Below are positions 1,518-16,426 of a stretch of DNA of 21,963 bases, in pieces. The notes below the pieces were generated by a model that had not been told where the DNA came from, ran no database searches, and saw only the letters and a program-made list of their open reading frames with translations. This DNA comes from a virus. Position 1 is the stretch's first letter. Every line of letters begins with the position of its first letter. The stretch lies in the IMG/VR virus record IMGVR_UViG_3300007735_000899, positions 1-21,963 of that record. One strand, 5' to 3'. Made by a program: the position numbers and the translations under genes.

Positions 1518-3095
1518 TTAAAATTCTACCCAAATTCCAGTGATTCCATTTACCATACGAGTAAACAGTTTACCGGTATTGATATTTATCCATCTATCGC
1601 CATTGTACATAGTACCAGCAGGTTCGGTGGATTGTGTGAACGTCCGTACACCCAGAATGTTCATGTTTGCAGAAAGGGTGGCACCACTACTCAAAGTAGA
1701 TATGAGATTAAAATTTCTAAACGTGCCTTCGTCTGTGGTAATTGTAACTGCCTGTACGTTTGTGGAACTAACGTTTGTTCCAGCATCTCCTTTACTTCCT
1801 GCTGCTCCTATTCTTCCGTTTGGGACATAAAATATACTTACAGGTTCATTGTCGTTAAAAGTAATTACCGACGATTTTGCCACATTATACGAAAAATTGT
1901 AGTATGTTATTCCGGCCGGTCCGGGACTGATGGGATTTATACTTTCTATACCGTAAAGAGATCCTTTATTGGTTATCTGGCTGGTAACAAACAACCATCC
2001 TCTACTCACATCAGCCACACCAGAATCAGGATAATCGTAAAGATATTTAAAATAATTATTTTTATCTAAACCATTAGCGTCTGTTCCGGATATAGAAATT
2101 ACATTAGAAACAGGACTAAATTTACCGGCAGATGTATCGCCAGATGTAGTATACGTGTACAGTACTCCGGAAAGACCGGTTGTTCCTGCTGGTCCTTGAC
2201 TACCGGATCCGCCACACACACCAGAAATTTCAATATCTACTTGTTTGCCTTTACGAGTTACAGTTACTCCAGATCCTTTAAAATTTAAATCGTTTACAGA
2301 TTTGATCACACGAGCACCATTTTTGTAGATGCCCACTGCACCACCACCAACAGAACCAGTATTTAACCATGAGAAATTTTGAGCTACCGTTTGTGCATCT
2401 AATTTAGTTTTTATCAGTTTAGTTAGATCTTCTTTAAATTTAGACCCATCAAATGAAATTATTTGATCTTGTAAAATTAACGGGTAATTCGCTGCTACAA
2501 TTCCTGGCTCTCCCTTAGGTCCTTCTGGACCTTCTGGGCCTTGTATGCCGGGTATTCCTTGCAGGCCGCGTTCGCCTTGAGGGCCGCGTTCGCCTTGAGG
2601 ACCGCGTTCGCCTTGAGGGCCGCGTTCTCCCTGTGGACCGTGTTCTCCGTCTTTTCCGTCTTTTCCGGGAATACCCTGAAGTCCTTGAGGGCCGCGTTCG
2701 CCCTGTGGCCCGTGTTCTCCGTCTTTTCCGGGAATACCCTGAAGTCCTTGAGGGCCGCGTTCGCCCCGTGGACCCTCGGGTCCTATAGGTCCTATAGGGC
2801 CGGGTTCGCCCTGAACTCCTTGTTCGCCTTTATCTCCGGGCCAACCGGTTTCGCCAGTATCTCCTTTATCTCCTTTTTCGCCTTTTGCGCCAGAGTCTCC
2901 TTTTGGTCCTTGAGGGCCCATAGGACCACGTTCGCCTTGAGGGCCTGCCCAACCGTCTTCTCCTTTTGGTCCCCGAGGACCGGCAGGTCCTCTTGGACCA
3001 GGAATATTAAAACTTTGTTGTGTTGGTATTTCGTTCTGTTGCTTGGGGGTTGCAACAGGCGGATTTATATTAAAATATTTTTTAAATTTATCCAT
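1518..3095 (-). CDS. Collagen-like tail fibre protein
   Basis: A 525-residue protein. Residues 33-200 are about 56 uninterrupted Gly-X-Y triplets, with Pro in many X places and Arg, Lys, Glu and Gln in Y (for example GPQGER repeats), typical of phage collagen-like triple-helix shafts. The first 32 residues are a polar N-terminal piece, probably the anchor to the virion. Residues 205-525 form the non-collagen head, with a short second run (GSGSQGPAGTTGLSG near 296-310) and a C-terminus with DRWININTGKLFTRM, a pattern seen at fibre tips. The trimeric fibre and the host-binding role are inferred. No chaperone gene is seen nearby. The DNA of the shaft is internally repeated. There is no clear ribosome site. 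Confidence 0.88.
   Translation of the reverse strand: MDKFKKYFNINPPVATPKQQNEIPTQQSFNIPGPRGPAGPRGPKGEDGWAGPQGERGPMGPQGPKGDSGAKGEKGDKGDTGETGWPGDKGEQGVQGEPGPIGPIGPEGPRGERGPQGLQGIPGKDGEHGPQGERGPQGLQGIPGKDGKDGEHGPQGERGPQGERGPQGERGPQGERGLQGIPGIQGPEGPEGPKGEPGIVAANYPLILQDQIISFDGSKFKEDLTKLIKTKLDAQTVAQNFSWLNTGSVGGGAVGIYKNGARVIKSVNDLNFKGSGVTVTRKGKQVDIEISGVCGGSGSQGPAGTTGLSGVLYTYTTSGDTSAGKFSPVSNVISISGTDANGLDKNNYFKYLYDYPDSGVADVSRGWLFVTSQITNKGSLYGIESINPISPGPAGITYYNFSYNVAKSSVITFNDNEPVSIFYVPNGRIGAAGSKGDAGTNVSSTNVQAVTITTDEGTFRNFNLISTLSSGATLSANMNILGVRTFTQSTEPAGTMYNGDRWININTGKLFTRMVNGITGIWVEF
2564..2635. repeat. Tandem 18-bp repeats in the collagen shaft
   Basis: Four 18-bp units begin at 2564, 2582, 2600 and 2618. 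The first two are identical, the third differs by one base and the fourth by several. Each encodes one GPQGER-type pair of triplets. Such arrays can gain or lose units by slippage without shifting the frame. Confidence 0.9.
2638..2772. repeat. Direct repeat, 72 bp and 63 bp copies
   Basis: Two nearly identical copies lie head to tail. The first (2638-2709) differs from the second (2710-2772) mainly by an extra nine-base CTTTTCCGT-type unit, which adds three residues (Gly-Lys-Asp). Both encode GLQGIPGKDG-EHGPQGERGP-like blocks. This looks like a recent duplication inside the shaft, still in frame. Confidence 0.88.
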
Positions 3096-3109: not shown

Positions 3110-6100
3110 TTAAGTATTGTTTTTAGACCAAAGAGATTTAGCGGTTTGTATCATTCGAACTTTTGCGTCTTCTAATACATAGTCTATTATTTGTTGAGTT
3201 TCAAACGATGAAGTGGCTCCTCTGTCTGCTGTTCCGTTGTAATACGCTACTTTGTTTCCGTAAGGAGCCAACGACAGTCCCAACGGTAACCATTCTGACG
3301 GCGTATACTGTTCTACAGGGCCTGCAAATGTGTTCTGGCTTGCTGTTGCCCACCACCAACGATTTCCTGTTGCACCCAAACACACGCCTTTAAGGTAATT
3401 ATATTGTGCTGAAATTGCTTGCCTTAACATAGTTTTATCCGACCACTGATTAATTCCAGCCGTTGTTCCGCCTGGGTGATTAAACATCCATTTTCGCCAC
3501 TCTGGTTGTGGTGCTGTGTCTTCATTTTGTCCGTTAGTTATTCTTCCTGCCACGATCCATCTATTAGTAGCGGTATTTTGCCATATAGCAATTCCATTTC
3601 CTCCACCATTCATAATAGGTTGTAACTGTTCGTAATTTATATTAGCATCGGTCTGTATAGTCCAAGGAGGAGTATAATAATATTCTGTTTCGTAAGTTTG
3701 CCGTGAATACGGGTTGCTTGTTGCTATGGTGTTGTAGAACACACTAACAAACGGAATAATTAATTTTTTAGGTTTTCCTGCTGCACTCAATAATTCATTA
3801 ATCTTAACGCATGCGGAAACCCCTTGTATAACTCTAATTCTATTCATATCTGGAGAATTTAAACTAGAATAAAAACTAGGCATCCACATATCAAAAGAAT
3901 CAATAGCACCACTCATTCCTTTAATCCACGCGTCCGCATAAAAATCAATTTTACTTTGAATGTTCGCAACAGAAACGTTATTTCCTAACACGTTCCCGGA
4001 ACCGTCTTGAAAATAATAACCCCAAACAGGCCAATTGTACACACCAAATTTACATTTAGGAAAGTAATGACGTAAACCGTGGAAATATACGCCGTCTGTT
4101 CCTGTTCCGCCATCAAAAATTTTTGCTATAGTGTACGCTAGTTCTGTAAAGTTTTGTCGAACAGTTCGTCCTTGATTGTCTTGAGAAATTAAAGCTTGCG
4201 GTTGTTCGAATGTTATTCCGTTATTATCGACAGTGGTGCTGATAATATCAACACTATCGGTTGGACCTGTCATTACTCCAAACCCAAAATGACCAACATC
4301 TCTATGATCTTCAAACCAATTTATGTAAATATATTCGGTTTTACTTGCAGTTACCCCTTGTAACACCAGAAGACGAACTATGTTGTCGATTTCTCGTGAT
4401 GTCACGTAATTGAAAGCATTAGTATTATATCCTTCACCAAATCGTAAAGAGCCATTAGCAGTCAAGCCGCCTTTCCAACCAGTAGTTAGACCAGGAATGC
4501 CATCAATTTTGTCGTAATACCACAAATAATACGGATCTATATTTTGCACATACGGCATATATTTGGCTCCCATTGCTTCGTAAGCAGCAACAGGAGCTCT
4601 ACCACCACCACTCATTTGTCTAATATCGTAAATTTGAGTTATTCCGCCTGTACTACCGTCATAAAATATTAAACTGTCAATATATGAATATTCTGGTGGG
4701 GTAGAGTTTGTGGTTGTTTTCCAGACACCAACATCAGAACCCAAAATATATTGTACATTTGTGCTTGTATCAACAGCTATTGAAATTTCTGGTTTAAATG
4801 TTGTTCGCCACAAATACGTATTGTTTGCTAGTTTAGCCCCTGTTGTTATATAATTTGTGTTCCAAGAAATGGAAGTAAGTCCTGATGGGGCTGTTTCTTT
4901 TATTCTTTTATTACCAAATCGCGTGTTTAATTCGTTTATTGTGGAATCTATTTTAGTTGCATACGTTAAACTTAATCCATTAAATTGTGATGGATTCCAA
5001 TACAAATACGCTTCTGCTCCCAATAGTCCAAGATGTATTATATTTTCGTAATAATACCTATCGTCTGTAGAAAATAATACAGGAGCATCAACCGAAATTC
5101 CGGTGTATCCTGGACTGGCGATCCACGGATGAAATCCTTTAGTAGCATCAGAACGACGAACAGACCGTGCTAGCTGTTGGCTTTGAATAAATCCAGACCA
5201 AACGGTTTGTGGCACCAGATCCGAAAAAGTGTATCCAGCAGGTGCAGTGTATCTAAAAATTAATTGAGTTGGGTTGGATTTGTTCACATACCATGCGGTC
5301 TTTATTCCTTCTAATATTCCGTAGAAATGTGGTGCAGAAGCAGTACCAAAGATATCGTCGTGGCTTTGTGGGTGACCATTAGAATCCGGTCCGGGGTTTA
5401 TTGTAGCAATAAATCCGTCGTAATTGCTTCCTCTTAAATCTGGTAATTTTTGTTTTGAATAATCCCACAATGCACGATTCAGTACTGCTGCACCGTATTG
5501 CCCAATAACTTTATTGAATGTGATATATTCTGCTCCTGAAGAATATGCTCCTAAAGTAACGTTAGTTAATGTAATTCCTGATAACAAATCAGACAAAGAA
5601 GAAAGGCCGTATTTTGCTTGCGTATATCTGGAGTCTCCGGTTAGTCCTTTTAATTTTTTTTCAAAAGTAATTCCATCAAAGGAACTTATCATGTATTGGT
5701 TTTCTTGATCAATAATAAGAAAATCAAAAGTAGTTCCCAGAGAATCTAACCAAGAATTCCATTCGGTAGTTACTCCTTTTATTCCAGTATCTGCCCATGG
5801 AGTTACGTTTGTCACTCCGGGAACAGATCCGGACGGTATATTGTCGGTTGTTGCCCCCCAAATTGATCTGGGTCCCCAATATCGTATAGGAGCAAGGAAC
5901 CGTTTACCAGCCGAAATTCCATCCAATCGGCTTCTTACGGCAGATGCGGATTCAATAGGTGTATTGGAATTATTAATATTAAAAATATCATTATAGCTAA
6001 CCCAGACAAACGGAACAATAGAAGTTAAACTGGAGCTATTAGGTATTTCAAACCAAGAACCCAGAATAATATTGTATGATTCTGATTCTCCTATTATATT

Positions 6101-6235
6101 TGGATACGGTATTTGTAACGGTATAATTTGATATTGTATTTTATCTTTTATAGAGAGCGAAAATACACTACGGCGGACTCCTTGAATTATTTTTGGAGTT
6201 ATCTGATTTAAAATGTTTCGTATTTTTAATTTCAT
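3110..6235 (-). CDS. Large virion-associated protein, possible glycoside-hydrolase-like barrels
   Basis: A 1041-residue protein with no family I can name securely, between structural genes. It is rich in Trp, Tyr, Asn and Gly, as in fibre or carbohydrate-active proteins. Two stretches look like TIM-barrel units. In the first, FDFLIIDQENQY at 170-181 resembles the Asp-x-Glu active-site strand of GH56 hyaluronidases, and GAEAYLYWNP at 406-415 resembles a final barrel strand. In the second, GVYNWPVWGYYF (731-742), SFDMWMPSFY (780-789), KKLIIPFVSVFYNT (823-836) and GGNGIAIWQ (878-886) follow the order of the last four barrel strands in that fold. This is pattern reading, not an alignment. It may be a tail-borne glycan-binding or glycan-cutting protein. 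Confidence 0.5.
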   Translation of the reverse strand: MKLKIRNILNQITPKIIQGVRRSVFSLSIKDKIQYQIIPLQIPYPNIIGESESYNIILGSWFEIPNSSSLTSIVPFVWVSYNDIFNINNSNTPIESASAVRSRLDGISAGKRFLAPIRYWGPRSIWGATTDNIPSGSVPGVTNVTPWADTGIKGVTTEWNSWLDSLGTTFDFLIIDQENQYMISSFDGITFEKKLKGLTGDSRYTQAKYGLSSLSDLLSGITLTNVTLGAYSSGAEYITFNKVIGQYGAAVLNRALWDYSKQKLPDLRGSNYDGFIATINPGPDSNGHPQSHDDIFGTASAPHFYGILEGIKTAWYVNKSNPTQLIFRYTAPAGYTFSDLVPQTVWSGFIQSQQLARSVRRSDATKGFHPWIASPGYTGISVDAPVLFSTDDRYYYENIIHLGLLGAEAYLYWNPSQFNGLSLTYATKIDSTINELNTRFGNKRIKETAPSGLTSISWNTNYITTGAKLANNTYLWRTTFKPEISIAVDTSTNVQYILGSDVGVWKTTTNSTPPEYSYIDSLIFYDGSTGGITQIYDIRQMSGGGRAPVAAYEAMGAKYMPYVQNIDPYYLWYYDKIDGIPGLTTGWKGGLTANGSLRFGEGYNTNAFNYVTSREIDNIVRLLVLQGVTASKTEYIYINWFEDHRDVGHFGFGVMTGPTDSVDIISTTVDNNGITFEQPQALISQDNQGRTVRQNFTELAYTIAKIFDGGTGTDGVYFHGLRHYFPKCKFGVYNWPVWGYYFQDGSGNVLGNNVSVANIQSKIDFYADAWIKGMSGAIDSFDMWMPSFYSSLNSPDMNRIRVIQGVSACVKINELLSAAGKPKKLIIPFVSVFYNTIATSNPYSRQTYETEYYYTPPWTIQTDANINYEQLQPIMNGGGNGIAIWQNTATNRWIVAGRITNGQNEDTAPQPEWRKWMFNHPGGTTAGINQWSDKTMLRQAISAQYNYLKGVCLGATGNRWWWATASQNTFAGPVEQYTPSEWLPLGLSLAPYGNKVAYYNGTADRGATSSFETQQIIDYVLEDAKVRMIQTAKSLWSKNNT

Positions 6236-8114: not shown

Positions 8115-9083
8115 TAACTCTTGTAACCAATGTTGCGTCATTTCTTGCATCATTAATTCAAATGTGTATTTTGGGGACCATCCAAGCACCGTTCTTGCCA
8201 GTGTTGCGTCTCCTCTTAAATAGTTAAGTTCTTCTGGCCTTTCGTATTTTTTATCTGTTTTTACGTGGTGTTTCCAGTCTAAACCTAGTTGATCAAACAC
8301 ATATTTTACCATTTCTTCTACGGTTCTGGTTTCCCCCGTAGCCAAAACAAAATCTTTAGGAGTATCTTGTTGAAGCATCAACCACATTCCTTCGATATAA
8401 TCTTTTGCGTGACCCCAATCTCGCTTGGAATACAGGTTGCCCAAAACCAATTCTTTAGACAGTCCTAATTTAATTTTAACTGCTTCTAATGCCGTTTTAT
8501 TGGTCACAAAGTTGATTCCTCGTCTGGGTGATTCGTGATTAAACAAAATTCCAGAGCACACAAACATATTATACGCCTGTCTATAGTTCCTGCAAAGCGT
8601 ATGTGCGTACAGTTTTGCACAGCCGTATGGGCTCACAGGAACCATTGGTGTCGTTTCTCTTTGGAACCCGTCTGGATCGCATGAATTACCAAACATCTCA
8701 GAAGTACCGGCATGATATACCTTTGAATGAGGCGAGAATCGTCTAACAGCTTCTAAAACTGCTAGTGTGCCTCCACCATTTACGTCTAAAGTATATTTTG
8801 GTAGATCAAAAGAAACTTGAACGTGTGATTGTGCGCCTAAATGGTATATTTCGTCTGGTTGAGTCTTGTTAACCACAGAATCAACACTGATAGGATCTAT
8901 TAGATCCATGTAGTGCAGGGTTACTTCATTTTTGGCGTGAAGATGTTCTATACGGGTTGTTTGAGATTCTGGAACAGAATTTCTACGGATAGTTCCGTGA
9001 ACTTTATAATCCTTTTCAAGTAAAAATTCCGCCAAATAAGAGGCGTCTTGACCGTTAGCTCCGATTATTAATGCTGTTTTCAT
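8106..9083 (-). CDS. gmd: GDP-mannose 4,6-dehydratase
   Basis: A 325-residue Gmd, full length for the family. GANGQDASYLAEF at 8-20 is the Gmd version of the cofactor loop, with Ala14 in place of the usual third Gly. TIRRNS at 31-36 is the NADP-binding RR segment. HAGTSEMFG at 124-132 gives the Thr/Ser/Glu, and SPYGCAK at 151-157 the catalytic Tyr153 and Lys157. LFNHESPRRG and GNLYSKRDWGHAKDY are near-diagnostic. The product, GDP-4-keto-6-deoxy-D-mannose, feeds GDP-L-fucose, GDP-D-rhamnose, perosamine or colitose; the two GT10 genes favour fucose. Composition is less AT-rich than the preceding genes. Its last codons overlap a late-promoter-like motif. Confidence 0.93.
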   Translation of the reverse strand: MKTALIIGANGQDASYLAEFLLEKDYKVHGTIRRNSVPESQTTRIEHLHAKNEVTLHYMDLIDPISVDSVVNKTQPDEIYHLGAQSHVQVSFDLPKYTLDVNGGGTLAVLEAVRRFSPHSKVYHAGTSEMFGNSCDPDGFQRETTPMVPVSPYGCAKLYAHTLCRNYRQAYNMFVCSGILFNHESPRRGINFVTNKTALEAVKIKLGLSKELVLGNLYSKRDWGHAKDYIEGMWLMLQQDTPKDFVLATGETRTVEEMVKYVFDQLGLDWKHHVKTDKKYERPEELNYLRGDATLARTVLGWSPKYTFELMMQEMTQHWLQELHK

Positions 9084-9843
9084 ATAATGTTTTGTATGTT
9101 TGTTTTATGCCTTTAACCAATCCTATAGTTTTTATAGGAAGCTCATTGTAAACACCACAATAAAATTGAAGTGTATTTTTGTTTTCTATGTTTATTGGTA
9201 CTTTATGTAAATCTAATTCATTAATTATACTTGCAATATTAGACAAGGTATATTTATCGCTGTAACAACAATTTACTTCTTTATTAGGTGTATCATTTTG
9301 GATATAATAATCTACCAAATTTATTAAATCTTTCATGTAAAAGAAATCCATAATTTTATCTGTATGGATTATCATAGGTTCTTTTTTTAAATACCGTATA
9401 ATATTTGCTTTTATAAATCGTGTGTCTAGTTCATTTTCATCAAAAGTAGCAAAAATTCGTAAATTATAAAAATTTGGAGTTTGTTTTATGGAAGTAGCAA
9501 TTGATCTTTTGCTCATACCATAATAGCTTTTGAGGTTAAAAATTTCTGCACCAGAGCCAAATGAAATTAATTTTTTAAATCTGTGTCGGTTTGCGTACAG
9601 ATTGCTGTACATCGTTAAATTATCTGTTAATACCTTTTCTGTGTCTGGTTGTAATCTAGTTCCACCAATTGCAGCAGTATGAATTACTGTATCATACTTT
9701 TTTTCAAACCAATCTCGTGTTTTATTGTGGTCTGTAAGATCAAAATCCTGTCTGGCTATAACCGTAATTTTATATTTGTCTTTTAATCCACTGTAAAGAC
9801 TTTTTGCTATATAACCATTTCCACCAGTAATAAGAATATTCAT
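9055..9843 (-). CDS. Short SDR nucleotide-sugar reductase/epimerase
   Basis: A 262-residue extended SDR. The cofactor loop GGNGYIA is at 7-13, with HTAAIGG at 55-61. SFGSGAE at 94-100 holds the serine, and YYGMSK at 107-112 holds Tyr108 and Lys112. This is shorter than most extended SDRs (about 310-330 residues), with a reduced C-terminal substrate domain. Next to gmd, the attractive reading is a GDP-4-keto-6-deoxymannose reductase or epimerase like GDP-fucose synthase. Next to the split transketolase on its other side, a ketone reductase finishing a branched sugar is equally possible. It overlaps the neighbouring genes by 4 and 29 bases. Confidence 0.7.
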   Translation of the reverse strand: MNILITGGNGYIAKSLYSGLKDKYKITVIARQDFDLTDHNKTRDWFEKKYDTVIHTAAIGGTRLQPDTEKVLTDNLTMYSNLYANRHRFKKLISFGSGAEIFNLKSYYGMSKRSIATSIKQTPNFYNLRIFATFDENELDTRFIKANIIRYLKKEPMIIHTDKIMDFFYMKDLINLVDYYIQNDTPNKEVNCCYSDKYTLSNIASIINELDLHKVPINIENKNTLQFYCGVYNELPIKTIGLVKGIKQTYKTLYENSINNRS

Positions 9844-10316
9844 TTTTTTAAATTTAAATAATTAGGAGACTTATTTTTAATTAATGTTTTAAAAATATTA
9901 TTTAATTCTTCTTCTGATGTTGGGTGATGTGATTTTACATTTTTAAAACAATTCATTATTTCTTTATCGTCTTCTGCCCAATGGGAAAAACCAAGATAAC
10001 CATAATCTTTATCTCGACCTCCACCGATTATGTTTACAGGAATATTTTCGTGGTTTAGATAATTTCTTATCATTTCAAACGGCCTGTAAATAGTAAATGG
10101 AGTTATAGAATAAATAAAAGGAACTTTACCTTCCATAGCTAATCCTATAGCCATTCCCATCATTACCATTTCAGAAGATCCTACGTTGTAGAATCTGTCA
10201 GAGAATTCATCTCGTATTTTATCCCAAAGACCGTAACCCAGATCGCCTGTTATCAGATAAATATCTGGATTAACTCGCATTTCATCCAGTAATAATTGTG
10301 CAAATTGTTTTCTCAT
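9840..10316 (-). CDS. Split transketolase, pyrimidine-binding half
   Basis: A 158-residue protein equal to the middle (PYR) domain of transketolase. LITGDLG at 21-27 and FYNVGSSEMVMMGMAIGLA (42-60) are typical; Glu49 fits the Glu that activates the TPP aminopyrimidine. GGGRDKDYGYLGFSHWAEDD follows as the usual Gly-rich and His segment. The C-terminal domain of full transketolase is absent, as in other split pairs. It starts inside the end of the N-terminal half (35-base overlap), preceded by AAAGGA six bases before the ATG, which fixes the start and suggests the two subunits are made together. It ends in a four-base overlap with the SDR gene. Confidence 0.85.
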   Translation of the reverse strand: MRKQFAQLLLDEMRVNPDIYLITGDLGYGLWDKIRDEFSDRFYNVGSSEMVMMGMAIGLAMEGKVPFIYSITPFTIYRPFEMIRNYLNHENIPVNIIGGGRDKDYGYLGFSHWAEDDKEIMNCFKNVKSHHPTSEEELNNIFKTLIKNKSPNYLNLKK

Positions 10317-10941
10317 CTAATTCCTTTAATGCGGTTTTATAGTCTTCTTCTTTCATCACATGATAGTGAGCATTTAATCCACGTAAAAATGAAAATTGTT
10401 CTACCGTAGTGTGGTGTATTTTTATGTCTGGTAAAAAAGCGCGAAGACGAGCTACTAGATATTCTGTATCTATCTTCATATATGCAGCGTATCCATTTAT
10501 ATTAACGTGAACCACTAAATTGTTTATCTGTTGCTCGTGTATAGTTTTTAGTGATTCCCAAACACTGCCTTCTGCACATTCTCCGTCACTTATTAATACG
10601 TGGACGGTACGATTTGGATTAGCTACTGCTCGACCCAATGCAATGGTTATTCCTAGTCCTAAACTGCCAGTAGAACAATATATCTTATCTTCTTCATCTC
10701 GGTGTGGATGACCACCGTGCTTTTTAAACAAATATTCTGCATCTTTGCCATGATATTTTTCAAGACAGCAGTAAAGAGCCAATGCTGCATGGCCCGAAGA
10801 TAATATAAAAATATCATCAGACTTCATGCTAGCATAAATACTGTCAATTATATCTATACTTGAAAAATAACTACCAAGATGGCTGAGTTTATTAGCGTAC
10901 GCTATATCTAATATTCGTTTTTTTAACTTAACATTTACCAT
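10282..10941 (-). CDS. Split transketolase, N-terminal (TPP-binding) half
   Basis: A 219-residue protein corresponding to the pyrophosphate-binding domain of transketolase. SHLGSYFS at 20-27 matches the conserved GHxG-type start, LSSGHAALALY at 48-58 the second active-site segment, and HPHRDE at 78-83 the substrate loop. The TPP/Mg motif is SDGECAEGS at 118-126, ending in an NIN triplet at 147-149. It needs a partner with the pyrimidine domain, which the next gene supplies. Such split pairs occur in bacterial surface-sugar clusters. Transketolases move a two-carbon ketol unit, so a role in building a branched or longer sugar is plausible. A normal pentose-phosphate role is less likely here. 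Confidence 0.85.
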   Translation of the reverse strand: MVNVKLKKRILDIAYANKLSHLGSYFSSIDIIDSIYASMKSDDIFILSSGHAALALYCCLEKYHGKDAEYLFKKHGGHPHRDEEDKIYCSTGSLGLGITIALGRAVANPNRTVHVLISDGECAEGSVWESLKTIHEQQINNLVVHVNINGYAAYMKIDTEYLVARLRAFLPDIKIHHTTVEQFSFLRGLNAHYHVMKEEDYKTALKELDEKTICTIITG

Positions 10942-11888
10942 ATAAACTTATTTTTGTAATACTCAATAATTTGTGATATTTCATTATCAAATTTTTTCTG
11001 AGGACACCAACCTAACGATCTTAGTTTAGAGTCGTCCAGTGCATAACGAACATCTTGGCCTGCTCTAGAATATGACATATCAACGTAATCATTAATATTA
11101 TAATTGTCTGTCTTTAATATTGTAGACAATATTTTATTTACGGTGTCTAGATTAGACTGTTCAAAACCACCAGCTATATTATAAATCTCATTAGTTACTC
11201 CGGATTCAATAATTTTTATTATTGCACCAGCAGTATCTTCTGCGTGCAGCCAGTTTCTAATAGGAGTTCCATTATTATGGAGTGGTATTTTACGGTTTAA
11301 TGTTAGGTACTTACAAACTTTTGGTATTAATTTTTCTACATATTGGCCAATTCCGTAATTATTAGTTGGTCGTACAATTACGTATGGAATGTTGTATGTG
11401 CGATTCCATGCCAAAATTAACATATCTGCCGCAGCTTTGGTGGCAGAATATGGATTTGATGGCTTTAGAAGATCGGTTTCTTTGTGGGCATCTTCTATAA
11501 TATCTCCATATACTTCGTCCGTGCTGAAGTGTAAAAGTGTAGGAATTTTTTTATTTTCTTGACGATAATTTTTAATCAAACCTAAAATATTATGAACACC
11601 GTTTATATTTGAACGAATAAAATCATCACTATTAGTGATAGAATTTCCTACATGAGTTTCTGCCGCAGTATTAATAATGTAATCACAATCGTATAGGAAT
11701 TTTAAATCATTGATATCACAACGAACAAAAGAAAAATTATCGTATTGTTCAAATTCTTTTAAAAGTTCTTTATTAGCAGCATATGTAATTTTATCTACAC
11801 CTTTTACGAACCAGCCTTTTTTAAGACACAATCTCGTAACATAAGATCCTATGAATCCCAAACATCCTGTTATATATACTATTTTCAT
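10935..11888 (-). CDS. RmlB-like nucleotide-sugar 4,6-dehydratase
   Basis: A 317-residue extended SDR. The NAD-binding loop GCLGFIG is at 8-14, followed by VDKITYAANKELL, close to the VDKLTYAGN of dTDP-glucose 4,6-dehydratase. STDEVYG at 122-128 supplies the Thr/Asp/Glu catalytic trio typical of RmlB, and YSATK at 147-151 the Tyr and Lys. RPTNNYGIGQ and NNGTPIRNWLHAEDTA follow as in that family. The reaction makes NDP-4-keto-6-deoxyglucose. The sequence looks more like the dTDP than the CDP enzyme, though the nearby E1-type dehydrase is classically fed by CDP-glucose chemistry. It overlaps its neighbours by 4 and 7 bases. Confidence 0.85.
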   Translation of the reverse strand: MKIVYITGCLGFIGSYVTRLCLKKGWFVKGVDKITYAANKELLKEFEQYDNFSFVRCDINDLKFLYDCDYIINTAAETHVGNSITNSDDFIRSNINGVHNILGLIKNYRQENKKIPTLLHFSTDEVYGDIIEDAHKETDLLKPSNPYSATKAAADMLILAWNRTYNIPYVIVRPTNNYGIGQYVEKLIPKVCKYLTLNRKIPLHNNGTPIRNWLHAEDTAGAIIKIIESGVTNEIYNIAGGFEQSNLDTVNKILSTILKTDNYNINDYVDMSYSRAGQDVRYALDDSKLRSLGWCPQKKFDNEISQIIEYYKNKFIW

Positions 11889-12814
11889 AATTCTCTAATT
11901 TCTATTGGTATTTTATTTTGATTATACGGAAAAGTTCTCAAAAAACCACCAACACATCTTTCATACTTTATACGGTACGCTTCATCGTTTATTTTTTTTA
12001 CATCTTTATTTAATGTTTTTCTGGTACTACCATCTTTTAGTGGGCATTTAAACTCTATAGGAATGTAGCCAGTTCTCCAGCCGTTTAAATAATACGCTCT
12101 AGCAAATAAATCGTGATCAGAATCGTGTAAAAAAAAATGTTGTTCGTCCATATATTTCATTGCCTTTAATTTACTCGAATCCAACAATAATGGTCCTCTA
12201 TTACAAGTTCCATACATGTATAAGTAATTTTTATTTAGATTGGGGGGTAATGGTTGTTCTAATAAATTTCCAAGTTTTCCAATACCAGCACCACCACCCA
12301 ATTCATGAGTACATCTACCAGAAATTCCTATAATATCTTGATATCTAAATCCTTTGGCTAAAGTAGAATTAAAACCAAATTCTATCATTTCCATATCGGC
12401 TTGTATTTCTAAAATATATTTTCCTGATGATAATAAAAATCCCATGTTATCACAAGTAGTCTCAAAAACAGGAGTTTCTTGTTTTATAATTATTATTTTT
12501 GTTAAATTTATAACTGATATATTATTAAATAAATTTAATAATATTGCTTCCGTATTATCTACACAAAAATCTAATATAATTATCATTTCAAAATCCGAAT
12601 CCATATTACGGATAATGCTAATAATATTTTTTTGTATAATAGCCTCTTGGTTAAAAACCGGAACAACAACACTATATTCTGGTTTATTAGAACTAAATTC
12701 TTTATATAATATTATTTTTGGTTCTGCTTGATTTGGTAAAGGAGCAGGATCTCCGTAAAATTTATTATCATAATAATTTTTATGTTTTAATTGTTCTTCT
12801 AATTCTTCTATCAT
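11885..12814 (-). CDS. GT2 family glycosyltransferase
   Basis: A 309-residue protein. YSVVVPVFNQEAIIQKNI at 47-64 is the classical GT2 start strand, LDFCVDNTE at 81-89 the nucleotide-binding region, and LEIQADMEM at 135-143 the metal site in a variant form (QAD in place of DxD). LHDSDHDLFARAY at 229-241 fits the catalytic ED-type helix of inverting GT2 enzymes. The first 45 residues form an extra N-terminal extension. There are no membrane spans, unlike polymer synthases, so it is probably a soluble transferase. It overlaps the dehydratase gene by four bases and is extremely AT-rich (4 of 60 bases are G or C at 12481-12540). Confidence 0.8.
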   Translation of the reverse strand: MIEELEEQLKHKNYYDNKFYGDPAPLPNQAEPKIILYKEFSSNKPEYSVVVPVFNQEAIIQKNIISIIRNMDSDFEMIIILDFCVDNTEAILLNLFNNISVINLTKIIIIKQETPVFETTCDNMGFLLSSGKYILEIQADMEMIEFGFNSTLAKGFRYQDIIGISGRCTHELGGGAGIGKLGNLLEQPLPPNLNKNYLYMYGTCNRGPLLLDSSKLKAMKYMDEQHFFLHDSDHDLFARAYYLNGWRTGYIPIEFKCPLKDGSTRKTLNKDVKKINDEAYRIKYERCVGGFLRTFPYNQNKIPIEIREL

Positions 12815-14360: not shown

Positions 14361-15111
14361 TTATTTCTTTTAATGATTTTACACGTATAAATTTTTCACA
14401 GTATTTAAATGTCTCTGGTAAAGAAGGACACCAAATATAAAATTTGTCAATGTTATTTATTGTCCATTTATTCATACACAAATGAAGAGGTCCTGTATTG
14501 ACTGCAACTATATTTTTTACATTTTTGGACAACTTTGCTATATCAACTACAGAAAGATTATAATCTAATGTGCATGGTAAGTTGTTTACTTTTCTTGTAG
14601 TTATTACTTTTTTATTCTTAGTTTTTTCTATTAACCAATTACAATCTTCATCAAAATTTGGAAACGGTATACTCATATTAACACTATTAATAAACAACAA
14701 ATCAAAATTTTTATGAGGAGATTCTTCTTTTAAAATTGCTTGATTATAAATCATGTCAGATTTATTATTAAATGGACATTCTATGCCCATAATAGCGGAC
14801 ACTTTTTTCCACAATAGTAAAAAAAATGTAGCTTGATCTGATTCTTCTTTAAAAATTATATCCGATTCGTCAGATATTTTTTGATAATTGTGCTTTGATA
14901 TCCACGTGTCTACAGAGTTAGAATATATTTTATCGTCTAATTTTAATAAATTTTTATCTTCTATTAATTCATTTAATTGATTATGATAAATGGGATTACA
15001 AGCAAAATTAAAATTAATATTGTTATTCTTTTTTACAGCATTTGTTAAAAAATGCATAGTTTGAATACAATCACCCAAGTGAGCAGTATTGTGGCAATTA
15101 ATTGTTTTCAT
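14341..15111 (-). CDS. GT9-like (heptosyltransferase-like) glycosyltransferase
   Basis: The frame extends to 15144, but I prefer the ATG at 15111. It gives a 256-residue protein beginning MKTINCHNTAHLGDC, so the glycine loop HLGDC (11-15) sits where GT9 proteins have their N-terminal GDxI-type loop, and it cuts the overlap with the dehydrase gene to 14 bases. AVNTGPLHLCM at 203-213 matches the donor-side TGxxH pattern of heptosyltransferases. It is shorter than usual GT9 enzymes (about 330-350 residues), and the middle is hard to align, so catalytic competence is uncertain. No membrane segment is seen. It overlaps the next gene by 20 bases. Confidence 0.5.
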   Translation of the reverse strand: MKTINCHNTAHLGDCIQTMHFLTNAVKKNNNINFNFACNPIYHNQLNELIEDKNLLKLDDKIYSNSVDTWISKHNYQKISDESDIIFKEESDQATFFLLLWKKVSAIMGIECPFNNKSDMIYNQAILKEESPHKNFDLLFINSVNMSIPFPNFDEDCNWLIEKTKNKKVITTRKVNNLPCTLDYNLSVVDIAKLSKNVKNIVAVNTGPLHLCMNKWTINNIDKFYIWCPSLPETFKYCEKFIRVKSLKEINENNII

Positions 15112-16426
15112 ATTTTTTAAAAAAATCTTTTGTGACTTCTTCAATATAATTTAATTGTTCTTCTGTAATAACTGGACTAGTTCCAAGAAAAAAAGTATCA
15201 GTAGTTACTTTTCTTGCATTTGGATAGTTATTGATTACTTCATCTTGATTCATCATTCCTGAATATGCTGGTTGCAGCATAATATTCCCGGCAAAATATG
15301 GTCTGGTTTGGATTTTACGCGATTCAAAATAATCAACAATATCTATTCTTTTAAATGGACTGTTGTTTTTTATTGTTAGAGCAAAAGCAAACCAGGCAGG
15401 ATCTGAATCATTAGTTGCTTTTGGTATGATAAAATATTCTTCGTATTTGGAAAAAATATCACAAAGTCTCTTGTGGTTGCGTTTTCTTAATTCAATAATT
15501 TTTGGTAATTTTTTAAGCTGCACAAGGCCCATAGCGGCCTGAATATCTGTTGGTTTTAAATTATAACCAATTTCATCATAAACATATTTGTGATCAAAAA
15601 TTTCATCCGGTAATGCAGGAAGCCAATTTGAAAAACGGGTTTTACAAGAGCCATTTTTTAAAAGATTTGCTTTTTGCCCAACGCAATAACAACCTCTTCC
15701 CCATTCACGAAAACTTCTTACAACTATTTCTTGTTTATGGGTATTACAAGCAACAAATCCTCCTTCTCCCATGGTTATATGATGGGCAGGATAAAAAGAA
15801 CAACTTGCAAAATCACCAAAACTGCCAAGTGGTTTATTTTTATAAGTAGATCCCAAAGCATCACAGCAATCTTCTAGTAAGATAAGACCGTACTGATTTA
15901 TAATAGACATAAGTCTATTCATGTTTGGAGGGTTGCCTAATACATGAGCAAAGGTTATAATTTTGCAGCCTTTCTTTGCTTTTTCTTCAACTTGATCTAA
16001 ATTTAAATTTAGTGTATCTAGATCGATATCAACAAATACGGGCTCAAAACCAACTTGAAATATAGGATTAATTGTTGTTGGAAATCCAGCAATTGGAGTT
16101 ATTACTTTTGTTCCTTTTGGAAATCCAGTTAATCTTTTTGAACATAAAGCAGACATCATTATTAAATTAGAGCTGCTGCCACTATTTGTCAATATGCCAA
16201 ATTGTTTATCTAGTAATTTGGGAAATTGCTGCTCAAAACGAATACCATTCTCACCTAACACTAACCAGCCATTTAATAACGATTTAGCTGCTTCTGTGAA
16301 TTCTTCATCGTCAAAATAAGGTCCAGCATATTGGACCCAATCTTTACCAGGAATCCAGCTTTTATTGTTATTTTTATTCTTTATAAAATCTTGTATTGAA
16401 TCTAATATGTGCTGCATTTTTAACAT
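15098..16426 (-). CDS. E1/RfbH-type PLP and [2Fe-2S] sugar 3-dehydrase
   Basis: A 442-residue protein of the DegT/DnrJ/EryC1 fold, full length for this branch. The motif SFYPAHHITMGEGG (210-223) has His215 where aminotransferases have the PLP-binding Lys. This marks the 3-dehydrase subgroup (ColD, and E1/RfbH/AscC). Cysteines 188, 246 and 248 reproduce the C-X57-C-X1-C spacing of the [2Fe-2S] ligands in E1. The fourth, Cys261, comes after 12 residues instead of the usual 7. The known reaction removes the 3-hydroxyl from CDP-4-keto-6-deoxyglucose with electrons from a separate reductase (E3), which is not in this window. The start may be Met1 or Met4; neither has a clear Shine-Dalgarno. The exact substrate is inferred. 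Confidence 0.85.
   Translation of the reverse strand: MLKMQHILDSIQDFIKNKNNNKSWIPGKDWVQYAGPYFDDEEFTEAAKSLLNGWLVLGENGIRFEQQFPKLLDKQFGILTNSGSSSNLIMMSALCSKRLTGFPKGTKVITPIAGFPTTINPIFQVGFEPVFVDIDLDTLNLNLDQVEEKAKKGCKIITFAHVLGNPPNMNRLMSIINQYGLILLEDCCDALGSTYKNKPLGSFGDFASCSFYPAHHITMGEGGFVACNTHKQEIVVRSFREWGRGCYCVGQKANLLKNGSCKTRFSNWLPALPDEIFDHKYVYDEIGYNLKPTDIQAAMGLVQLKKLPKIIELRKRNHKRLCDIFSKYEEYFIIPKATNDSDPAWFAFALTIKNNSPFKRIDIVDYFESRKIQTRPYFAGNIMLQPAYSGMMNQDEVINNYPNARKVTTDTFFLGTSPVITEEQLNYIEEVTKDFFKKYENN

Follow-up and report, generated by a model that had tools for sequence, protein, structure and literature searches.

A putative E1-type sugar 3-dehydratase and an exchangeable ThDP carboligase slot in a T4-like phage family

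Sugar genes of the window

The window, by which we mean the whole stretch of DNA analysed here, is a 21,963-base fragment from IMG/VR that carries T4-like gp62 and RegA. The closest RegA proteins (~56–61%) are found in Synechococcus phages and in a Methylophilales phage, and this split leaves the host open. A megablast of the window matched no phage record. The following sugar genes, all on the minus strand, are considered below.

15098..16426, minus strand: E1/RfbH-type nucleotide-sugar 3-dehydratase, 442 aa, with His215 for the PLP lysine and Cys188, Cys246, Cys248 and Cys261
11885..12814, minus strand: GT2-type glycosyltransferase, with weak GT2 family matches
10935..11888, minus strand: RmlB-like nucleotide-sugar 4,6-dehydratase, with STDEVYG and YSATK motifs; predicted source of the 4-keto-6-deoxy E1 substrate
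10282..10941, minus strand: TktN, 219 aa, one half (ThDP-binding) of a split minimal transketolase, with SDGE...N and three His at transketolase-like positions
9840..10316, minus strand: TktC, 158 aa, the other half (pyrimidine-binding) of this transketolase, with Glu49 at the catalytic-Glu position
9055..9843, minus strand: short SDR oxidoreductase with YGMSK and weak Fcl/RmlD-type matches; predicted to reduce a ketone, either in the branch or at C4
8106..9083, minus strand: GDP-mannose 4,6-dehydratase-like SDR (TIGR01472 382.7 bits, cut-off 415)

Adjoining this sugar island is a gene for a collagen-like (Gly-X-Y) tail-fibre protein (1518–3095, minus strand), and beside the tail fibre lies one for a 1041-aa protein (3110–6235, minus strand) without any PHROG match.

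The dehydratase ORF runs from its ATG start at 16426 to 15098. The earlier note had given the correct coordinates for this gene but no strand; a plus-strand ORF over the same interval is excluded, as that frame is full of stops. The protein passes the cut-off of the NCBIfam RfbH equivalog NF011936 (466.9 bits, cut-off 423), and aminotransferase models score far under their own cut-offs. Residues 6–436 align with Yersinia E1 (PDB: 3bcx, E 7.7e-102), the second-best solved relative is the H220K mutant of the same enzyme (PDB: 3bb8, E 1.4e-100), and ColD stands behind both (E 2.8e-55), with 344.5 bits for E1 vs 191.1 for ColD. An AlphaFold2 model of the protein (mean pLDDT 91, pTM 0.89) aligns with 3bb8 over 412 residues at 1.8 Å (Z 53.1), while ColD reaches Z 46.6. 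Family cut-off, PDB alignment, and fold therefore bear out the E1-type assignment made previously. The same applies to the proposed replacement of the PLP lysine by His215, which aligns with E1 His220, the residue altered in the H220K mutant. We consider it highly probable that the gene encodes a true E1/RfbH-type 3-dehydratase, its activity being inferred.

Scanning IMG/VR turned up 211 relatives of this gene; the best 80 (75–97% identity) were retained and, together with the window, form a phage E1 set of 81 sequences, 64 of them distinct. With the gene present on 80 other contigs, chance or an assembly artefact as its source is excluded.

The RmlB-like SDR stays alongside E1 across this phage family, mostly at 67–85% identity. 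It scores 302.2 bits against TIGR01181 (cut-off 365.1) vs 75.1 against the CDP-glucose dehydratase model TIGR02622, and its top PDB matches are dTDP-glucose 4,6-dehydratases. Bacterial E1 loci usually have CDP-glucose enzymes; the phages keep the RmlB-like 4,6-dehydratase instead, and no good RfbF or RfbG match was found in phage loci. One large E1-bearing phage record has an RmlA-like thymidylyltransferase (TIGR01207 249.9 bits, cut-off 360.65). Judging by these sequences, a dTDP-linked route would be the better guess; it is not shown, and the nucleotide stays uncertain, as the RmlB-like protein lies below the dTDP cut-off and a Gmd-like gene is present in the window. The latter is variable in presence among the phage relatives and therefore probably belongs to a second sugar pathway. 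Gmd as the partner of E1 (the colitose route) is excluded as the main reading, since Gmd varies and the RmlB-like protein stays with E1.

We note several further genes around E1 and its relatives. In L151 (590–2232), the 211 kb record of the E1-bearing locus L073, the RmlA-like nucleotidyltransferase and an uncharacterised Rossmann/SDR-like ORF sit directly ahead of a clamp-loader-like gene. A second, shorter DegT-family gene (383–390 aa), probably for a sugar aminotransferase, clusters with E1 and lies in the same island in L018, L038, L061, L063, L074, L076, and L080. Finally, a 'Salmonella phage' record of 2,570 bases (OR851175.1) has an RfbH-like gene over half of its length and may be host DNA.

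Cysteine motif and electron source

Counted along the 3bcx alignment, the cysteines of the window protein and of E1 pair as Cys188/Cys193, Cys246/Cys251, Cys248/Cys253, and Cys261/Cys261. The first three retain the C-X57-C-X1-C arrangement of E1, as had been proposed. The sole length difference in the region is a gain of five residues between Cys248 and Cys261, turning X7 into X12, so that the fourth cysteine is not at X7, the spacing of the studied enzyme. The spacing of 12 rather than 7 reported in the earlier note is consequently real; it is not peculiar to one phage, X12 being a trait of the whole phage family. Cys187, Cys188, His215, His216, Cys246, Cys248, Cys261, and the X12 spacing are common to all 81 phage sequences (64 distinct), whereas Cys95, Cys154, and Cys209 vary, as do loop positions 251, 254, 255, and 260. 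Two marine phages at ~42% identity, the named Synechococcus phage S-H68 and AG-345-D19, have X11.

Nearly all E1-type bacterial sequences from a targeted contig scan are X7. Since the two peptides used in that scan were similar to the query, genome samples from three phyla (395, 398, and 386 genomes) were added. In these, X7 was found at every E1-type locus with a readable cysteine motif (88/88), the motif CYCEPGKDNTC among them having been missed by the script pattern and read by eye. The exceptions come from MAG contigs: L123 (66% identity) has X12 and L082 (64%) has X11, and both cluster with the phages on the E1 tree; a fragment, L138 (60%), also resembles the phage sequences. These three may be viral contigs inside MAGs, which is unproven. 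We note that L123 (9995–16135; Alphaproteobacteria MAG SZUA-1021) carries the X12 E1, an RmlB-like SDR, and a split transketolase 65–70% like the phage versions, and that it is either a viral contig that ended up in a MAG or a copy belonging to a bacterium.

As a lineage trait in which the ligand residues are kept, the X12 loop argues for function and against decay. It is very likely, in our judgement, that the phage E1 retains its Fe-S cluster. Cluster binding is nonetheless inferred, and the fourth ligand is unproven, as loop 251–258 is modelled at low confidence (pLDDT <50).

In bacteria, the E1 gene is typically preceded by RfbF, then RfbG, and trailed by an FNR-like reductase of ~225–240 aa; in the bacterial locus L083, for example, RfbF (430 bits) and RfbG (507 bits) both score over their cut-offs. 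A tblastn search with four such E1-adjacent reductases matched 42 bacterial loci and 0 phage loci, and a protein search for the reductase was positive in 0 of 45 whole phage records (including those of 211 kb and 199 kb) and in 3 of 3 bacterial controls. Neither Fer2 (PF00111) nor NAD_binding_1 (PF00175) domains were found in the phages. NAD_binding_1 is a weak test for E3, with the bacterial reductase itself barely reaching the cut-off of 22 (22.0 bits), and it was superseded by the protein search with its positive controls. Most phage records are fragments, and the absence of genes is therefore strong only in aggregate. The lack of an E3-type reductase, claimed at first for the window, thus stands and can be widened to all 45 records and to the phage loci.

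In the related Fe-S 3-dehydratase SpnQ, ferredoxin or flavodoxin pairs are reported to replace E3 (PMC8987622). Because SpnQ runs on such pairs, the supposition that host electrons would drive the phage E1 is reasonable, the electron donor being inferred by analogy. The longer X12 loop may be suited to a non-E3 electron partner, which is again an inference.

The ThDP carboligase slot

Between the RmlB-like SDR and the SDR at 9055–9843, the window encodes a split transketolase that the earlier note had not mentioned and that is the stronger clue. The family matches of both halves are weak and above cut-off (TktN, PF00456, 30.5 bits; TktC, PF02779, 56 bits), and the Transketolase_C domain (PF02780) was not found in TktC. 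His21, His51, His78, SDGE 118–121, and Asn149 of TktN, as well as Glu49 of TktC, do not vary among the 20 phage copies (14 distinct). The phage enzyme reads SDG where the canonical ThDP motif is GDG. Gene junctions in the window overlap at 10935–10941, 10282–10316, 9840–9843, and 9055–9083, as in a coupled operon.

The contents of this slot across the family were obtained by clustering all ORFs in the loci, the informative ones being those with both flanking SDRs (n = 59, window included); the SDR at 9055–9843 is conserved at the far end. A ThDP enzyme lies between the two SDRs in 59 of 59 informative loci, and no slot is empty. Thirty-one loci have a single-chain YerE/JanthE-like enzyme, 19 including the window a split transketolase, and 8 a PDH-E1-like pair, while one (L074) has two kinds: a PDH-like pair occupies its slot, and a YerE-like gene lies immediately upstream of the slot. 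Consequently, 4,6-dehydratase, 3-dehydratase, ThDP carboligase, and SDR are encoded together in all 59.

The best PDB match of the YerE-like phage enzyme is 8rph (457.9 bits), followed by an acetolactate synthase (259.2). The former is JanthE, a YerE-like carboligase that joins aldehydes to ketones (PMC12188165). The ThDP superfamilies that branch keto-sugars, or are proposed to, are the YerE-like, alpha-KADH2, and transketolase ones; for transketolases, keto-sugar use is unproven anywhere and experimental evidence is missing (PMC12247030). The earlier inference of a 3,6-dideoxy or further modified sugar is supported by the slot content, and the next step can now be named as C4 branching by a ThDP enzyme.

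The neighbours of the carboligase differ by type. In most loci, YerE-like intervals hold PanB (311.7 bits, cut-off 272), NeuB/PseI-like, HpcH/HpaI-like with AroB-like, or DmpF/DmpG genes, and such possible makers of special 2-oxo acids are confined to these intervals. ErwE is reported to prefer 4-hydroxy-2-oxo acids (PMC12247030), which are the product class of DmpG. Transketolase and PDH intervals have at most a methyltransferase gene, which is consistent with enzymes that draw on pyruvate or common ketose phosphates. We further observe that the YerE-like cassettes of L006, L011, L027, and L031 share a set made up of one DJ-1/PfpI-like gene and two genes without assignment that always occur jointly, and that a 4Fe-4S dicluster (LdpA-like) protein, possibly an electron carrier or a donor-making enzyme, is encoded within the YerE-like cassette of L007 (14895–16058) and also in L023 and L066.

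The carboligase, and by inference the branch that it would add, is an exchangeable module. The E1 tree requires at least 16 changes of carboligase type, and close relatives such as the window and L001, whose E1 proteins are 97% identical, or L019 and L022, differ in type. An 11-kb stretch of the window and L001 is collinear, with 83% of nucleotides identical; it runs almost to the very end of the dehydratase gene, and collinearity restarts just ahead of the SDR at 9055–9843. Between these points, the window has 1.1 kb with the transketolase genes and L001 has 5.4 kb with NeuB-like, YerE-like, FabG-like, and AroB-like genes, with no detectable sequence shared between the two slots. Similarly, a PDH-like pair and a YerE-like cassette take the same slot in the pairs L019/L022 and L008/L011.

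Proposed pathway, alternatives, and known systems

We propose that the cassette acts as follows: (I) the RmlB-like 4,6-dehydratase (10935–11888) would yield an NDP-4-keto-6-deoxyhexose, probably from host dTDP-glucose; (II) the phage E1, predicted to be PMP- and [2Fe-2S]-dependent like Yersinia E1, would remove the C3 hydroxyl via a PMP-glucoseen intermediate; (III) this intermediate would be reduced through the Fe-S cluster with electrons from a host ferredoxin or flavodoxin system, invoked because the phage is without E3, and the cysteine loop, longer by five residues, may be suited to the host partner; (IV) the resulting 4-keto-3,6-dideoxy product would be the ketone acceptor for the ThDP carboligase, so that the split transketolase of the window would take a hydroxyacetyl unit from a ketose phosphate and place it on C4; and (V) the SDR at 9055–9843 would reduce the branch to give a C4-branched 3,6-dideoxy octose for glycosyltransferases. 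Sister phages would use the same slot with a YerE-like enzyme and their own 2-oxo-acid-making genes, or with a PDH-E1-like pair. To the whole scheme of a host-powered E1 and C4 branching by an exchangeable carboligase we assign, as a matter of judgement, a probability of about 0.68. The order of steps and the product are inferred, with neither an assay nor a sugar structure at hand.

The E1 product could instead end as a plain 3,6-dideoxyhexose of the abequose or paratose type, reduced at C4 by the SDR at 9055–9843, with the ThDP enzymes serving another sugar of the island. Known E1 pathways often end in such simple sugars (PMC8987622), and phage islands do encode further sugar enzymes such as Gmd. 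Yet the ThDP gene is never missing between the two conserved SDRs, the three slot types correspond to the three keto-sugar-branching superfamilies (PMC12247030), and the same carboligase kinds occur in bacterial E1 loci. We therefore regard the plain dideoxyhexose as unlikely and consumption of the E1 product by the ThDP enzyme as likely, the branching activity being inferred.

Other readings concern the dehydratase itself. That it works like ColD, by PLP/glutamate-dependent 3-dehydration without an Fe-S cluster and with its cysteines as relics, would agree with the missing E3, with the shared fold (Z 46.6), and with a Gmd-like gene in the window that could provide GDP-4-keto-6-deoxymannose. 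It is quite unlikely given that the protein is nearer to E1 by both bit score and Z (53 for E1), that none of the 64 distinct phage sequences has lost any of the four cysteines where other cysteines drift, and that the constant partner of E1 is the RmlB-like protein, not Gmd. A DegT-family sugar aminotransferase mistaken for a dehydratase is highly improbable: sugar aminotransferases have this fold in common, and SpnQ does catalyse aminotransfer without a reductase (PMC8987622), but His occupies the position of the catalytic PLP lysine in 81 of 81 phage sequences, and it is the RfbH equivalog, not any aminotransferase model, whose cut-off is passed.

Returning to the branching scheme, we see about even odds for a broader joint reading, in which a T4-like phage lineage holds a fixed 4,6-dehydratase/E1/reductase backbone, rewired to host electrons via the longer Fe-S loop, with a plug-in site for three ThDP carboligases. 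Here, recombination would insert unrelated carboligases, each with its donor supply if needed; phages would diversify the branch on a single sugar of the surface or virion, as others do their tail fibres; and the phage split transketolases would act on a keto-sugar, an activity undemonstrated so far. The destination of the sugar is undecided and could be the host surface, the virion, or DNA.

Whether transketolases add to sugar ketones is an open question of ThDP enzymology, for which only Streptomycete candidates have been put forward (PMC12247030). Exchange in place at the phage loci provides independent genetic evidence on keto-sugar transketolases, in the form of small pairs (219 + 158 aa). 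With its X12 loop and no E3 alongside, the phage enzyme lends itself to testing whether an Fe-S dehydratase has moved to an electron donor of the host. The exchange of sugar-branching modules as whole cassettes suggests that phages are under strong selection to vary one glycan.

Among known systems, E1 of Yersinia pseudotuberculosis (CDP-6-deoxy-L-threo-D-glycero-4-hexulose-3-dehydrase, 3bcx/3bb8) shares with the phage enzyme full-length homology, fold, active-site His, and the first three cysteines with their spacing. The phage enzyme differs in its loop before the fourth cysteine (X12, five residues longer), in the absence of an encoded E3, and in its partner 4,6-dehydratase, which is RmlB-like and not a CDP-glucose enzyme. 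SpnQ of the Saccharopolyspora spinosa spinosyn pathway is likewise an Fe-S PMP 3-dehydratase, reportedly with ferredoxin/flavodoxin reductase pairs for E3; its substrate is a different one, dTDP-4-keto-2,6-dideoxyglucose (PMC8987622).

In the pathways to yersiniose, erwiniose, and other branched sugars (YerE, ErwE, JanthE), the YerE and ErwE carboligases accept the E1 product, as we propose for the phages, and YerE makes yersiniose from it. The YerE-like enzymes of the sister phages match JanthE best. Unlike these pathways, the present one is phage-encoded, its carboligase can be swapped for a split transketolase or a PDH-E1-like pair, and several phages carry their own 2-oxo-acid-making genes. 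Split-gene transketolases have been proposed in amipurimycin and miharamycin biosynthesis, where they would add hydroxyacetyl to a keto-sugar, and the 13 cited candidates are all from Streptomycetes (PMC12247030). Compared with these, the phage halves are shorter and without the C-terminal transketolase domain.

Genes for a YerE-like enzyme or a split transketolase also occur in bacterial E1 loci, in some cases accompanied by DmpF/DmpG or HpaI-like genes. Three Bacteroidales-type loci (L083, L108, L133) show RfbF-RfbG-E1-reductase-SDR-split transketolase clusters and are candidate bacterial keto-sugar transketolases outside Streptomyces. As bacterial E1 loci hold the same carboligase kinds, this kind of pathway is bacterial and partly known. 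E1 homologues in cyanophages have already been annotated (S-H68), and we found no report of the present pathway in phages in the open-licence papers searched. What appears to be new is a phage family that possesses such a pathway, in which the carboligase slot is exchangeable, E3 is missing, the 4,6-dehydratase is RmlB-like, and the Fe-S loop of E1 is longer.
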